Origin: an uncultured Monoglobus sp.
GTDB lineage: Bacteria > Bacillota > Clostridia > Monoglobales > Monoglobaceae
Direction of reading: 5' to 3'
Length of the DNA stretch: 64,000 nt
NCBI GenBank assembly: GCA_947630135.1
Contig: CANRGH010000007.1
Location: 1-64,000, forward strand
Under the pieces are notes generated by a model. That model searched no databases and was not told where the DNA came from. It saw nothing but the letters and a program-made list of their open reading frames with translations. This document shows positions 27,317 through 32,680 of this stretch, one piece after another; the first letter of the stretch is position 1, and each line of letters begins with the position of its first letter. The translations under genes and the position numbers were made by a program.

Positions 27317-27475
27317 TACGTGCGGTGTAATAGAATATTAATAAAGCTTTAACATTTATGTGATATTTTTCCGCCAAAATATGTTACAATAGTATATGTA
27401 TGGTTTTATGAAAATGAAAGTAAATTTGAACTTAAGTCAGAGCGCAATCGTTTATCGCATACAGGAGGACAACGG

Positions 27476-29896
27476 ATGAGCTTTTTTGGAAAATTGTTTT
27501 CCGGCAAGGGCAAGGAAAACAATGAGTCGGATTATCTCGACCGGGCATATGAAAGCCTGGGAGACGACGCGGATCTTAATCCCGATAATATATTTGACAG
27601 AAACGCCGCGTCGGACATATCCGAGGAACAATACGGTGAAATTTACACCGCGGAGGAGTCCGGCGGTGATTTTGGCGTTGAGTTATCCGCTGAGGCCGAT
27701 GATTATTACGATGCGGATGAAGAGCCCGCGGCGGCGGAAGCTGCTGCGGATGACGGGGAGTTTGCCGATATAACGCTTGATTATGAGGCGGATGATGAGA
27801 TAATTGCCCCGGACGAGGCGGAGCAAAGATCCGAAATCGAGCAAGAGGCGGAGGAGCCCGTCATAGACGTGAACGAAGAATACGTGGCCGCAGCGGCCGA
27901 AGAGGTCGATGATGAGCTTGTCGCCGATGCCGCCAGTGCTTTTGACGCTCTTAAGGGCGACACCGACGAGATGGATGTTGACGAGATATTCCGCGCCATG
28001 AACGAGGCCGGAGAGTACGCCGAGCAAATAAAGGCGGGCCAAGAGCCGCAGGCGGCTCCCGAGCCCGAATATGAGAATGAGGACGAGGGTGTTGAGCTTT
28101 ACGGCACCGAATACGAGGCGCCCGATAACGCGGAGTCCGCAGAACATTCGTCCGCAGAACTGTCGTCCGTGGCGGCTTCGGATAACGAATATGACGGCAG
28201 CTTCGGAAGCCTCGACAATGTCGGTTCGGACAGCGCGTGGGAGGACGCTTACAGTCACGACTCGTTCTCGCTGCGAGGCGCGCAGAACCTTATTTCCCAG
28301 GACGATCTGGCGGCCTCGTCGCTGCTTAACAATGATATTGACAAGGAAACGCTGTATTCGGCCTACGCTCCGAAGAGCATGCGCCCGAAGATAACCGAAA
28401 CGTCGTATTACGACCTTGACGAGCCGGTTGATAATGATGAGAACGAGCCGGGCGCGGTTAAAAAGTTCCTGACCAAAAAGAAAAAGTGGATCATCGGAAT
28501 TGCGGCCGCCGCGGCGGTTATCGCCGTGACTGTGGGCGCGCTGATGTTCGCGCAGTATAAGCTTGACCCGCTTAAGGGCTACAGCGAGACCTATATCACC
28601 AAGGGCAATATAATCAAGACTATGGAGGCGGGCGGCAGCGTTGAGCCGAACGCCAGATACAACATAATCCCCATGGTCGGCGGCACAATAACCGAGTCGC
28701 CCTTGAGCGCGGGAGACACCGTCCGCGCGGGGGAACTGGTCTATAAGATCGACGACACCAATGCGCAGATCGCTGTCCAGCAGGCGCAGAACGCGGTCAG
28801 CAGGGCGCAGAGCGCCGACACAAGCTCGTCGGCGACCGAGCAGGTGAAGGTATACGCGAACGCCACGGGCGTTATCAGTAATTTGAATATATCCGCGGGG
28901 ACCCGCGTGACGGGCGGCCAGATCGCCACGATCACGCAGGCGAACGGCACCGAGATCGGTCTTATTCCGTCGGTCAGCGGAACTGTCGAGAGCGTGAATG
29001 TGCGCAACGGCTCGAACGTTACCTCGGGTCAGGTAGTGGCGACGCTGAACAGCGACAGGGCCGCGTCGGGAATTTCGGCCGAGGATAAGCAGAACAACAT
29101 CACAGCCGCGAATTTGGCTTTGGAGCAGGCGAAAAAGGATCTTGAGAACTACAAGATCGCCTCGCCGGTGGACGGCACGATCCTTGTGAAAAACGCCAAG
29201 GTGGGCGACAGCGTCATTGCGGGACAGAACGATCAGCCCTTAATGGTTATCGGCGACATGAGCAAGATGAAGTTCACCATCGAGGTCGACGAGCTTGACA
29301 TATGGAACATTGAGCAGGGCCAGACCGTCGTTATAACGGCTAACGCGCTGCCCGGCGAGACCTTCAGCGGCGAGATAACCAACATTGCCGGCGAGGGCGA
29401 TAAGAAGGGCGAGGGAGTTACGTCATACAAGGTTGAGATCACGGTTTCGGAGCCCGGAAAGCTCAAGTCCGGCATGAACGTTGACGCGAAGATCATCATA
29501 AACTCCGCGATAAACGTGCTGTCGCTTCCGGAGGCCGCGCTTTATCAGTCTGACGGCGAGAACGCGCTTGTTATCACCGACAGCGACTCCGGGGACGAGG
29601 TTGATCCGTCCGAATATCCGGAGATCACGCTTCCCAAGGGATATAGGCTGGTTAAAGTGAAATATGGCGTAAGCGACGGCACCGATGTTGAGATCGTGTC
29701 GGGCCTCAGCGTGGGCGACGCGGTGCTCTACAAGCCCGCGGGGGACGGCGAGCCGTCCGATGAGCAGTCTTCGGCGACAGCTCAGCCGAGACCGACGGCC
29801 GACGCGCAGTCCGGGACCGACAACGCCGCGGACGACGGTGAGAATGTTAAATCGACAGGAAAATCGGCAACCGATGAGGGCTTGACGGATGTATAA
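27476..29896 (+). CDS. HlyD/MacA-like adaptor with a very acidic cytosolic N-terminal region
   Basis: An 806-residue protein. Residues 1 to about 325 are low-complexity and highly acidic (Asp/Glu/Ala-rich, few Lys or Arg), with no domain I can name. A basic patch (KKFLTKKKKW) precedes one membrane segment at about 338-360. The rest is outside the membrane and is an HlyD/RND-type adaptor with three lipoyl-like hairpins (near 390, 470 and 560; for example ASPVDGTILVKNAKVGDS), a short coiled coil and a beta-barrel domain, then a Ser/Ala/Asp tail. Such adaptors bridge a transporter and an outer layer. It is followed 31 bp later by a MacB-like permease. The acidic extension is much longer than usual for the family. 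Confidence 0.8.
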   Translation: MSFFGKLFSGKGKENNESDYLDRAYESLGDDADLNPDNIFDRNAASDISEEQYGEIYTAEESGGDFGVELSAEADDYYDADEEPAAAEAAADDGEFADITLDYEADDEIIAPDEAEQRSEIEQEAEEPVIDVNEEYVAAAAEEVDDELVADAASAFDALKGDTDEMDVDEIFRAMNEAGEYAEQIKAGQEPQAAPEPEYENEDEGVELYGTEYEAPDNAESAEHSSAELSSVAASDNEYDGSFGSLDNVGSDSAWEDAYSHDSFSLRGAQNLISQDDLAASSLLNNDIDKETLYSAYAPKSMRPKITETSYYDLDEPVDNDENEPGAVKKFLTKKKKWIIGIAAAAAVIAVTVGALMFAQYKLDPLKGYSETYITKGNIIKTMEAGGSVEPNARYNIIPMVGGTITESPLSAGDTVRAGELVYKIDDTNAQIAVQQAQNAVSRAQSADTSSSATEQVKVYANATGVISNLNISAGTRVTGGQIATITQANGTEIGLIPSVSGTVESVNVRNGSNVTSGQVVATLNSDRAASGISAEDKQNNITAANLALEQAKKDLENYKIASPVDGTILVKNAKVGDSVIAGQNDQPLMVIGDMSKMKFTIEVDELDIWNIEQGQTVVITANALPGETFSGEITNIAGEGDKKGEGVTSYKVEITVSEPGKLKSGMNVDAKIIINSAINVLSLPEAALYQSDGENALVITDSDSGDEVDPSEYPEITLPKGYRLVKVKYGVSDGTDVEIVSGLSVGDAVLYKPAGDGEPSDEQSSATAQPRPTADAQSGTDNAADDGENVKSTGKSATDEGLTDV

Positions 29897-29927
29897 AATT
29901 TAAGCGGAATACGGGTTTTGAGGATGT

Positions 29928-31103
29928 ATGAGGATGTTTAAAAAGCGCGGCGCGGAGCGGAACGAAAAAAACGCTCGTTTTGAGCGCGCGGCTAAAGCGG
30001 CGGGCAAAGGCGCCAAAGGCGGTCTTTCCCGGATTAAACTGAATAAAACACAGGCGAGCTTTGTGCTAATCGCTTTCGCGGCCGCGGTCTGCGCCGCGGC
30101 GGCGGTAGGGCTCGCCTTAAATTCGTTCGCGCAGATTTCGGGCTTTGGGTTCAGCCCGTTCGGCGGGAACGCGGTAATACTTGAGGATTTTGGCGGCGCG
30201 GGTATAACCCTGTCCGCCGCCGAGGAGTTCGCGCAGAAAAACGAGGCCGATTTTGAGGCCGTTGTGCCGCTTAAAACGGCGGACGGCTTTGAGCTGCGCG
30301 GAGGTGCGGGCTCCCACAAAAACGGCCGCGTGACGGTCTCAAGCGACGGTCTGTTTGAGTTTGGCGCCGTGACGGTCGAGGAGGGCGCGCCCCTTAGTAA
30401 GGCTGATTATGAGCGCAGCGCGGCGCTTGTCTCGGCTGATGTCGCGGCGGAGCTTTTCGGAGAGGCCGACCCCGTGGGCGGAAGCGTTAAGATAAACAAC
30501 CGCCCCTATACGGTTGTAGGCATATTCAGCAGTGATTACGACGCGGAAAATCTCGGCGACGTTATCCTGCCCGGCGGCGCGTCAAGAATGATATTCGGCA
30601 CCGCCGAGGTCGGAAGATATGCTTTTATCGTCTCGGGCGGCGTGTCCGAGGTCGAAAGCAAGGTAAAGCGGTTTGCCGAGTCGGGCTCGGGCAGGCTCAA
30701 AAGCGGTGACTTCGCGGTCACGGCCGGCCCCGGAGACGACAGTGAAGGAACGGGCGCGAAGGCGGTCGTCTATATCGTTATGCTGATAATATGCGGAATT
30801 GTTCTTCTGATGTTCCTTCTGTTTCCATCAAGGCGCGAGTCGGCGCCGCGGGGCTTAAAGAGTGAAATTGTTTACAGGGCGTCGCGCAATCTTTGTGCCG
30901 CGCTCATACCCGCGTCTGTCGGAATAATCGTCGGCGCGGCTCTGGGAGTTTGCGCGGCGTTCGCTTACACCCGCGTTTGCGGCGTTCCGCTGTTTGTCTC
31001 GGCCGCGGAAATACTCATGCCCGCGGGCGCGGCTTTGGTCTTGGCTTTGATTTTGGCCGCAGTGTCGGCTTTTTTGAGATTGGGCGGTGATAAGAATGCC
31101 TAA
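29928..31103 (+). CDS. MacB-like permease subunit (periplasmic core plus FtsX) without ATPase domain
   Basis: About 391 residues. A strongly basic N-terminus (about 1-38: KKRGAERNEKNARFERAAK and more) is followed by TM1 (about 41-64), a large extracytoplasmic domain (about 70-280) of MacB periplasmic-core type (NNRPYTVVGIFSSDY, EDFGGAGITLS), then three TM segments to the C-terminus. MacB proteins normally carry an ABC domain or have an ABC gene beside them. None is found here. The start is ATG 29928 or 29934. Its 3' end overlaps the GGDEF gene. Function as a transporter is uncertain. Confidence 0.7.
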   Translation: MRMFKKRGAERNEKNARFERAAKAAGKGAKGGLSRIKLNKTQASFVLIAFAAAVCAAAAVGLALNSFAQISGFGFSPFGGNAVILEDFGGAGITLSAAEEFAQKNEADFEAVVPLKTADGFELRGGAGSHKNGRVTVSSDGLFEFGAVTVEEGAPLSKADYERSAALVSADVAAELFGEADPVGGSVKINNRPYTVVGIFSSDYDAENLGDVILPGGASRMIFGTAEVGRYAFIVSGGVSEVESKVKRFAESGSGRLKSGDFAVTAGPGDDSEGTGAKAVVYIVMLIICGIVLLMFLLFPSRRESAPRGLKSEIVYRASRNLCAALIPASVGIIVGAALGVCAAFAYTRVCGVPLFVSAAEILMPAGAALVLALILAAVSAFLRLGGDKNA

Positions 31104-32652
31104 GCTTGGTTCCGCGATAAAAAGCTATGTTGACGGCCGCAGCGACGAAGACGGCAAGGATACGAAGTTTTTTGAGATAATAAGTCCCAAAACGTTGATA
31201 ATACGAACCGTTTGGTGCGGAATTATTGCCGCGGCGGTTTTTGTGCTCTCAAAATGGATCTACGATACCCTGTCACGCCGTTCGGACGTGTCGGCAATCG
31301 CCGCCGCTCTCACGGCTTTTCTTGTGGTCGTGGTTTACGCCGTAATTCTGATCAAAGAAGTTATGGACCGCTTCAAGTTTATAATAAAAGAAGATAGGGA
31401 AATAATTCGGAATATCGTCGGCGGCACGATGATCACCTGCGACGACGACTTTTTTACCATAAAAAAATGCACGCCTATGTTTTATGATATGCTCGGCTAT
31501 AAGCGCGGTGAGATACTGGAGCGTTACCGCCGCGAGTTTGACAAAATGCTGGTGGGCGACGAGTCGAGGCTTGAGTTCGCGAAGCTCAAACACAAGCTGC
31601 ATGAGAGCGGTCACGCGCAGGCGCGCTACAAGCTGCTGAAAGGCGACGGCTCGGAGCTCTGGGTCGCTGTCCGCAGCTTTCTTGTGAAGGGCATAGGGCG
31701 CGATCCGTCGGTTTACACTGTTCTTTTGGATATTTCGCGGGAAATGAATTTGCAGCAGCGCTATATGCTCGCGGAGGCCAGAAACAAAATTGTGCTTGAG
31801 AACATAAACAGCGGCATATTTGAGTGGGACCTGATGCGGAACACTCTCGAGATCTCCGATCAGATGGAACGCAGGTTCTTCGGCAAGGAAGCGGACGGCG
31901 TACTTCCCGCGACGATAGTAAAGGATTATATTGATGCCGAGGATTTCAGGCTGCTCAGCGAGAAGCTTGAGTCGATGAGAAACAACGGTACCGATAAGAT
32001 CGAGATGACGTTAAAGCTCAAGAACGCTGACGGCACATACACTCATTCGGACGTGAGCCTTATAGCGGTGCGCGACAACAATAATGTTGCGGTCCGCGCG
32101 GTGGGAATTCTGTTAGATGTCGAGGAGCGCCACCAGAGAGAGGAAAAGCTGCGCGGCGAGGCGAGCCGCGATTCGCTTACCGGAATTTATAACAAGGGCG
32201 CGACCCAGAAGCTCATCGAGAGCGCGATAGAGCTGAGACCCGAGCAGGAGCACGCTTTGATCCTGTTCGATGTGGATAATTTTAAATCGGTCAACGACAC
32301 ATTCGGCCACGGCGTGGGCGACGAGACGATCAAAAAGGTCGCGGACCTGCTGGGTGGCACGTTTTGCCGAAGCAGCATAGCGGGCAGAATAGGCGGCGAC
32401 GAGTTCATGGTGTTCTGCCGCGGCATAGGCGGCGATTACGGGCGCCTCAGAATGCTGCTTGACAGGATAAAAGAAAAAAGGCCCGTGATAGGGGAAGGCG
32501 AAAAACGCCGCGAGATCACGTTAAGCGCCGGAGTCGCCCTGTATCGGAAGGACGGCGCGACCTATGATGAGCTATATAAAAACGCCGACGTCGCCCTGTA
32601 TAAGGCGAAAAACTCCGGCAAAAACCGTTACGAGTTCTACGGCGAGCTTTAA
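31096..32652 (+). CDS. Membrane PAS-GGDEF diguanylate cyclase
   Basis: About 518 residues. Two TM segments (about 38-60 and 72-92) are followed by two PAS-like sensory regions (about 110-220 and 235-345) and a GGDEF domain near 350-518, with the active motif GRIGGDEFMVF at about 431 and the usual LTGIYNKGATQKLIE. It should make cyclic di-GMP. The residues five positions before GGDEF do not read RxxD, so the product-inhibition I-site looks absent. The ATG at 31096 is inside the 3' end of the permease gene (8-nt overlap), placing this enzyme in the same transcript as the adaptor and permease. Confidence 0.9.
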   Translation: MPKLGSAIKSYVDGRSDEDGKDTKFFEIISPKTLIIRTVWCGIIAAAVFVLSKWIYDTLSRRSDVSAIAAALTAFLVVVVYAVILIKEVMDRFKFIIKEDREIIRNIVGGTMITCDDDFFTIKKCTPMFYDMLGYKRGEILERYRREFDKMLVGDESRLEFAKLKHKLHESGHAQARYKLLKGDGSELWVAVRSFLVKGIGRDPSVYTVLLDISREMNLQQRYMLAEARNKIVLENINSGIFEWDLMRNTLEISDQMERRFFGKEADGVLPATIVKDYIDAEDFRLLSEKLESMRNNGTDKIEMTLKLKNADGTYTHSDVSLIAVRDNNNVAVRAVGILLDVEERHQREEKLRGEASRDSLTGIYNKGATQKLIESAIELRPEQEHALILFDVDNFKSVNDTFGHGVGDETIKKVADLLGGTFCRSSIAGRIGGDEFMVFCRGIGGDYGRLRMLLDRIKEKRPVIGEGEKRREITLSAGVALYRKDGATYDELYKNADVALYKAKNSGKNRYEFYGEL

Positions 32653-32680
32653 AAGACGCGCGGCGTGCGCGTCTTTTTTG
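32651..32680 (+). terminator. Terminator after the GGDEF gene
   Basis: AAAAGACGCGC and GCGCGTCTTTTTT form a GC-rich stem directly after the stop codon, followed by a six-T run. Confidence 0.85.

Follow-up and report, generated by a model that had tools for sequence, protein, structure and literature searches.

A MacA-type adaptor and an ATPase-less MacB-fold permease in Monoglobus: a probable motorless derivative of a MacAB system that may serve as an envelope scaffold or relay

Introduction

Gram-positive bacteria possess type VII ATP-binding cassette (ABC) systems of the MacA-MacB kind, exemplified by SpMacAB (Spr0693-0695) and YknWXYZ of Bacillus. According to PMC5985334, MacB has two coupling helices, the major one between transmembrane helices TM2 and TM3 and the minor one C-terminal, and the ATPase of SpMacB is stimulated by full-length SpMacA but not by forms lacking the cytoplasmic region and the membrane helix. 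From the latter result, the membrane and cytosolic end of an adaptor can matter in signalling to its partner. The subject here is a pair of neighboring genes, encoding an adaptor and a permease, in a stretch of 64,000 nucleotides from an uncultured Monoglobus sp., a gut bacterium (positions 1 to 64,000 of contig CANRGH010000007.1, GenBank assembly GCA_947630135.1), the whole of which was analyzed and is called the window. The pair resembles the Gram-positive systems in its adaptor family and in the four-TM MacB_PCD fold of its permease but differs from them in having no ABC gene and neither coupling motif, and in the 335-residue acidic tail of its adaptor, which in those systems is short.

The fold of the permease is evident from its predicted structure (mean predicted local distance difference test score, pLDDT, 79.7), which matches MacB, LolE, SpMacB, and YknZ. 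The match to SpMacB (5xu1_M) has a Z score of 22.0, with a root mean square deviation (rmsd) of 10.1 over 351 aligned positions, and that to the YknZ domain (5f9q) a Z score of 16.5 (rmsd 2.8, 172 aligned). LolE (9xro_E), also of type VII fold, gives 22.2 (rmsd 6.0, 338 aligned), and FtsX structures give about 13. FtsEX and LolCDE each have a dedicated ATPase, and neither is known to have a HlyD-type adaptor. FtsEX is reported to work in signal transmission and not in transport.

An "orphan" ADOP permease is one with no adjacent ATPase. ADOP (TIGR03434) thus likewise comprises MacB-like permeases that lack an ATPase neighbor, but the ADOP permease is duplicated (803 model positions), while that of the window is single, at 391 amino acids. 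With 22.8 bits against the TIGR03434 cut-off of 622.3, it was rejected as a member. The open-licence literature, among the matches listed, describes no ATPase-less MacAB pair and no such adaptor tail.

Results

Loss of the ATPase and of the coupling motifs

The argument turns on two genes and one loop:

27476-29896, + strand: gene for a MacA/HlyD-type adaptor of 806 amino acids, with AGGAGG at 27463-27468 ahead of its start
29928-31103, + strand: gene for a MacB-fold permease of 391 amino acids with four TM and no ATPase
30822-30887, + strand: cytosolic loop between TM2 and TM3, where the major coupling helix is expected; the consensus is gone and the loop is shorter

Of the features that make up a MacAB-type system, the locus has a HlyD/MacA-type adaptor with an N-terminal membrane helix (HlyD/RND_mfp family: PF16576, 74.6 bits; TIGR01730, 138.3 bits, cut-off 94.9) and a four-TM MacB_PCD permease (PF12704, 54.7 bits, cut-off 27) with its ectodomain between TM1 and TM2. 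What it lacks is the dedicated ABC ATPase and the coupling-helix motifs. An earlier note on this DNA, made from the sequence alone, had described the permease as MacB-like, with no ATPase domain and no ABC gene nearby, and this holds: no ATPase is fused to the permease, no MacB-type ABC gene lies near the pair in the window, and the closest ABC match there, at 15.2-16.6 kb, is to a protein with two ABC domains, about 11 kb upstream. Since a separate, unfused ATPase gene was found in all 22 related operons examined, only the absence of the ABC gene is unusual. That absence extends to the corresponding loci of 11/11 relatives in the genus, where open reading frames (ORFs) of at least 120 amino acids over 14-15 kb were searched by a motif and BLAST test. 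(Throughout, "the genus" means 12 genomes, G000 to G011, and the window comes from G000.)

The motifs through which a permease would be coupled to an ATPase have gone as well. In the 13 diverged permeases (the 12 of the genus and that of Candidatus Roslinia caecavium, described below), the major coupling motif was found in none and the minor in none, compared with 22/22 and 21/22, respectively, of the classical, ATPase-paired permeases. The classical sequence TERTREIGIRK(S/A)(L/I)GA has disappeared from the genus permeases and persists in Roslinia in degenerate form, and none of the 13 retains the C-terminal NPIDAL. At residues 299-312 the model of the window permease is coil, with low confidence. 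The profile of the FtsX domain (PF02687) gives 80 bits with the classical MacB of the source genome and 27.7 with the Roslinia permease, and in 6/6 genus permeases scanned, it is below the cut-off of 25.5 or unreported. Over the whole of G000, C16 and C19 are the only places with a PF02687 match; no FtsX was found, though a divergent FtsX is possible, while 13/14 control genomes do match.

In the source genome (2.35 Mb), PF00005 has 33 matches. Judged by their neighbors (size, membrane helices, nearby lipoproteins), the stand-alone ATPases in the sampled stretches are mostly like those of importers, energy-coupling factor (ECF) systems, or ABC-2 systems, in a survey that set aside C14 (not resolved by the ORF script), C39, C6, and the long multi-domain ABC proteins. 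Two are exceptions: a system at C19 beside a two-component pair, and the intact classical MacA-ABC-MacB operon at C16. The latter belongs to the same three-gene family as the window pair, and the two permeases are 16% identical (alignment A2), but at C16 the ABC protein has its Walker A motif and signature, the coupling motifs are kept, and the permease evolves more slowly. All 12 genus genomes and Roslinia carry a classical MacB besides the diverged permease, with MacB_PCD scores of 133-148 bits as against 54-89.

The diverged permease is nonetheless maintained. It stands beside the adaptor in 12/12 genus genomes, in an open frame of 386-406 amino acids. Beyond the three-species branch that includes the window, its identity to the window permease is 24-44%, while the far slower adaptor core retains 67-74% in genus members beyond that branch. 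The ratio of nonsynonymous to synonymous substitution rates (dN/dS) is 0.14-0.24 for the permease and 0.05-0.16 for the adaptor core (10 pairs each), compared with 0.04-0.12 for classical MacB (4 pairs); 10 pairs of MurT and 7 of the GGDEF protein were also included. The permease is under purifying selection, then, though it is less constrained than classical MacB or the adaptor core.

A degenerate ATPase in the closest relative

The closest relative outside the genus, Roslinia (G017/L126), has an adaptor 48% identical to that of the window over residues 1-785, a 241-amino-acid ABC protein, and a permease:

L054:5677-6402, + strand, and L126:12595-13320, + strand: degenerate ABC gene between adaptor and permease

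PF00005 still matches this protein, at 38.8 bits, but its Walker A position reads VKTSKEKRA instead of the GxSGSGKST of 22/22 relatives, LDFIA stands in place of the LSGGQ signature, and the H-loop reads ITSD, while the histidine is kept in 22/22. The Q-loop and D-loop are altered too. All 22 related ABC proteins pass the test for Walker A and signature. Roslinia also possesses a classical operon.

In the adaptor tree, the 21 orthologues form one clade (100/100), which groups (98/90) with six adaptors from intact ABC and MacB operons of three other genera; the tree is midpoint-rooted, and "sister" holds for these six unless the root falls inside the 27 rows. Within the clade, eight permease-less rows from two genera stand apart from a branch made up of Roslinia and the 12 genus rows. 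The permease tree has a branch (100/98) dividing the 22 classical from the 13 diverged permeases, with long branches and unreliable rooting, and it is mainly through the orthologous adaptor and the gene order that the Roslinia permease is tied to those of the genus.

Adaptor orthologues with neither ABC nor permease neighbor found (L104, L106-L112, and L105, whose downstream side is unseen) come from Ructibacterium gallinarum and metagenome-assembled genomes of two genera. In these nine genomes, the adaptor is present and no second MacB-type permease was found; since their completeness is 72-99% (G018 99%, G016 98%), single absences are weak evidence. The contig of G030 stops about 260 bases past the adaptor. 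G029, in which the ORF of the adaptor continues into a frame upstream of it where the contig ends, is excluded from the tail, motif, and tree counts, so eight of the nine permease-less adaptors are counted there. Also seen in several family genomes is a protein of about 770 residues after the classical MacA-ABC-MacB operon (L055:3233-5542, - strand; L113:6905-9214, + strand; L114:7767-10091, + strand).

Descent from a three-gene pump is indicated by the sister adaptors in intact pumps, by the degenerate ABC protein of the relative, and by the loss in the genus of the ABC gene and the coupling motifs. To judge from the sequences compared, a motorless MacAB derivative is well supported, and the doubt voiced in the earlier note as to whether the two form a classical pump is supported by the 13 permeases without coupling motifs and by the state of the Roslinia ABC protein. 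That note had also named a dedicated ABC subunit beside the pair elsewhere as something that would refute its reading. One is there, degenerate in Roslinia and intact in the sister clade.

The charged tails

The two proteins of the window divide as follows:

27476-28480, + strand: acidic cytosolic N-terminal tail of the adaptor, residues 1-335, net charge -79, mostly predicted disordered
27476-27610, + strand: tail motif 1, residues 1-45, FFxK ... [DE][FY][LVI]...AYxSLGD, conservation 0.69 over 7 lineages
27956-28033, + strand: tail motif 2, residues 161-186, GDTxEMD..., with a predicted helix at 168-186
28343-28429, + strand: tail motif 3, residues 290-318, YSAYAPKSMRPxxTETSYYDLD, conservation 0.71 over residues 286-320
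28481-28564, + strand: membrane helix of the adaptor, residues 336-363, with a Lys-rich stretch ahead
28565-29740, + strand: extracytoplasmic core of the adaptor, with barrel and lipoyl-like parts and a short interrupted hairpin; the best-conserved portion
29840-29872, + strand: extracytoplasmic C-terminal motif ENVKSTGKSAT, after a variable linker, from comparison of adaptor C-termini
29928-30047, + strand: basic cytosolic N-terminal tail of the permease, residues 1-40, net charge +11, with a predicted helix at 2-38

The earlier note drew attention to the opposite charges of the two cytosolic N-termini, which are as it described them, and proposed that the tails bind each other. The 335 residues before the adaptor's membrane helix (start at about 336) hold 97 acidic and 18 basic residues. 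As background, a simple longest-ORF script was applied to 485 kb of the source genome (about 21%, window included), where it called 383 genes. Against these, this tail is the most acidic of 29 N-terminal tails of at least 60 residues before a membrane helix (the runner-up is at -12), and in the 199 proteins of at least 300 amino acids, no 300-residue stretch is as acidic as one within it (-83; runner-up -59). The 40 residues ahead of TM1 of the permease hold 14 Lys or Arg and 3 Asp or Glu, making this tail the second most basic of 30 with a first membrane helix starting at 26-62 and the most basic of the 17 multi-pass proteins among them (medians +3.5 and +4).

The permease tail does not keep this character across the genus. 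The window permease and those of the two closest relatives have +11 and that of G008 has +8, but the remaining eight lie between +2 and +7, so strong basicity of this tail is not shared throughout the family. The Roslinia permease has +6, and in eight classical permeases the tail is 16-18 residues long and carries +1 to +3. The adaptor tail ranges from -40 to -107 in the 12 genus genomes and is at -65 in Roslinia, and tails so long and so acidic occur only where the permease is present: those of the eight permease-less adaptors are shorter, at -5 to -33, two being just -5 and -7.

Conservation within the adaptor tail is concentrated in three blocks (0.69, 0.44, and 0.71), with spacers of 0.23 and 0.14 between them. 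The tail model has pLDDT mostly below 50, with short helices that coincide with the conserved motifs, among them helices at 17-29 and 36-45 in motif 1, predicted with low confidence. Using patterns picked after the alignment had been inspected, [DE][FY][LVI] of motif 1 was found in 20/21 orthologues, including 8/8 without permease, and in 0/22 classical adaptors. Motif 2 was found in 13/13 permease-bearing lineages and 0/8 permease-less adaptors, and YxAYAP[KR] of motif 3 in 13/13 and 1/8 (Ructibacterium). By these patterns, motif 1 is independent of the permease, while motifs 2 and 3 mostly accompany it. At the other end of the adaptor, the form EN..STG occurs in 12/12 genus adaptors, only partially in Roslinia, and in 0/8 adaptors without permease. 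By this distribution, the C-terminal motif is as plausible a site of permease contact, on the extracellular side, as tail motifs 2 and 3.

The neighboring diguanylate cyclase

On the + strand of the window, the order is SpoIIP, MurT, GatD, adaptor, permease, and a further gene:

31087-32652, + strand: membrane PAS-GGDEF protein, whose start overlaps the permease stop and which adjoins the permease in 10/12 genus genomes

With 31 bases between adaptor and permease and the overlap that follows, a shared transcript of the three genes is likely. A scan for the promoter consensus gave 5 matches, no excess over the 3.6 in shuffled sequence. Terminator-like sites, which are consensus matches only, numbered 17 (6 on the coding strand), compared with 7.1 in shuffles; none falls in the adaptor-permease gap, one, at 31055-31070, lies within the gene for the permease, and two that overlap each other are found right after the GGDEF stop (32657-32672).

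At E <= 1e-50, a PAS-GGDEF orthologue was found in 10/38 family genomes, all within the genus, and in each the best match is the gene that follows the permease; another, weaker match is present in G009 at a different site. At the same threshold none was found in G008 and G011, which keep the pair. The GGDEF letters are unbroken in the translation, and by its position, the co-encoded diguanylate cyclase is a candidate partner of the pair.

Discussion

The two proteins have probably taken on a role other than that of a pump. The reading preferred here, to which we assign a probability of roughly 0.55, is that it is an ATPase-less MacAB remnant serving as a passive envelope scaffold or relay. According to this model, the permease would support the adaptor ring in the membrane as a passive base, and together the two would act as scaffold or relay. 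The acidic tail would be a disordered tether to which cytosolic partners dock at the conserved short motifs, while its bulk negative charge would serve as a spacer and not as a clamp specific to the tail of the permease. The simplest order of events would begin with an intact pump, which gained the acidic tail and had its ATPase disabled or lost, after which one branch lost the permease and the other retained it; we infer the order of tail gain and ATPase loss within the middle step. In a more specific form, which we consider doubtful, an ATP-independent relay would cross the envelope, the adaptor ring and coupling-free permease sensing either the cell wall or a ligand outside the cell and signalling to the cytosol through the tail motifs and the diguanylate cyclase.

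Several observations weigh against the scaffold or relay. The degenerate ABC protein is known from a single genome. Fast evolution of the permease could also signal slow decay, and an ATPase acting in trans, that of the classical MacB at C16, is possible by sequence. The GGDEF orthologue, not found in 2/12 genus genomes, is not obligatory. Also, motifs 2 and 3 mostly track the permease, so by these patterns the role of the tail may lie with the permease after all.

The last point bears on the proposal that the two tails bind electrostatically in the cytosol and so hold the complex together, which now appears rather unlikely and is not supported as the main function. The charges are opposite in all 13 pairs and covary in the predicted direction, but the correlation is weak (Spearman -0.50, p 0.08, 13 pairs); taken over 7 lineages, it is -0.65 to -0.75 (p 0.05-0.11), depending on the representative. 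In G001, G006, and G009 the permease tail is just +2 or +3, within the range of the multi-pass background, and the adaptor tail there is still at -40 or lower. The earlier note would have given up the idea if one tail were lost while the other was kept, and this is partly the case: the eight orthologues without permease retain a milder acidic tail and the motif-1-like pattern. Moreover, what is conserved in the adaptor tail is its short motifs, and the charged spacers are free to vary. The tail may nevertheless be connected with the permease in some way, since the long acidic tails and motif 2 occur only with the permease, and motif 3 nearly so. Regulation of the adjoining PAS-GGDEF enzyme, by which the adaptor-permease complex would gate it and relay the state of the envelope to cyclic di-GMP, is a tentative alternative that draws on the restriction of the orthologue to the genus, right after the permease, on the overlap of start and stop, and on the intact GGDEF letters; gene order is its sole link, and two genus genomes keep the pair with no orthologue found.

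If the permease were a decaying remnant, and only the adaptor mattered, then the genus would resemble the two genera in whose nine genomes the adaptor occurs but no second permease of the MacB type was found. The speed of permease evolution fits this as well, but an open, adaptor-adjacent permease in 12/12 genomes, its dN/dS, and an adaptor C-terminal motif confined to genomes that keep the permease make it improbable. Less probable still is a pump that remains ATP-driven by borrowing an ATPase in trans, for example from C16. ATPase sharing occurs among some ABC importers, and the source genome does have an intact operon to borrow from. Both coupling motifs are lost in 13/13 permeases, however, and Roslinia, despite its classical operon, has a degenerate dedicated ABC protein.

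Family models alone would label both genes as efflux components, a role made unlikely by the missing ATPase and coupling motifs. One bacterial family offers an apparent evolutionary series of motor loss: intact operon, degenerate ATPase, adaptor with uncoupled permease, and adaptor alone. The series raises the question of how a MacA-type adaptor functions once the motor of the pump has gone, and why it is present where an outer membrane is lacking.

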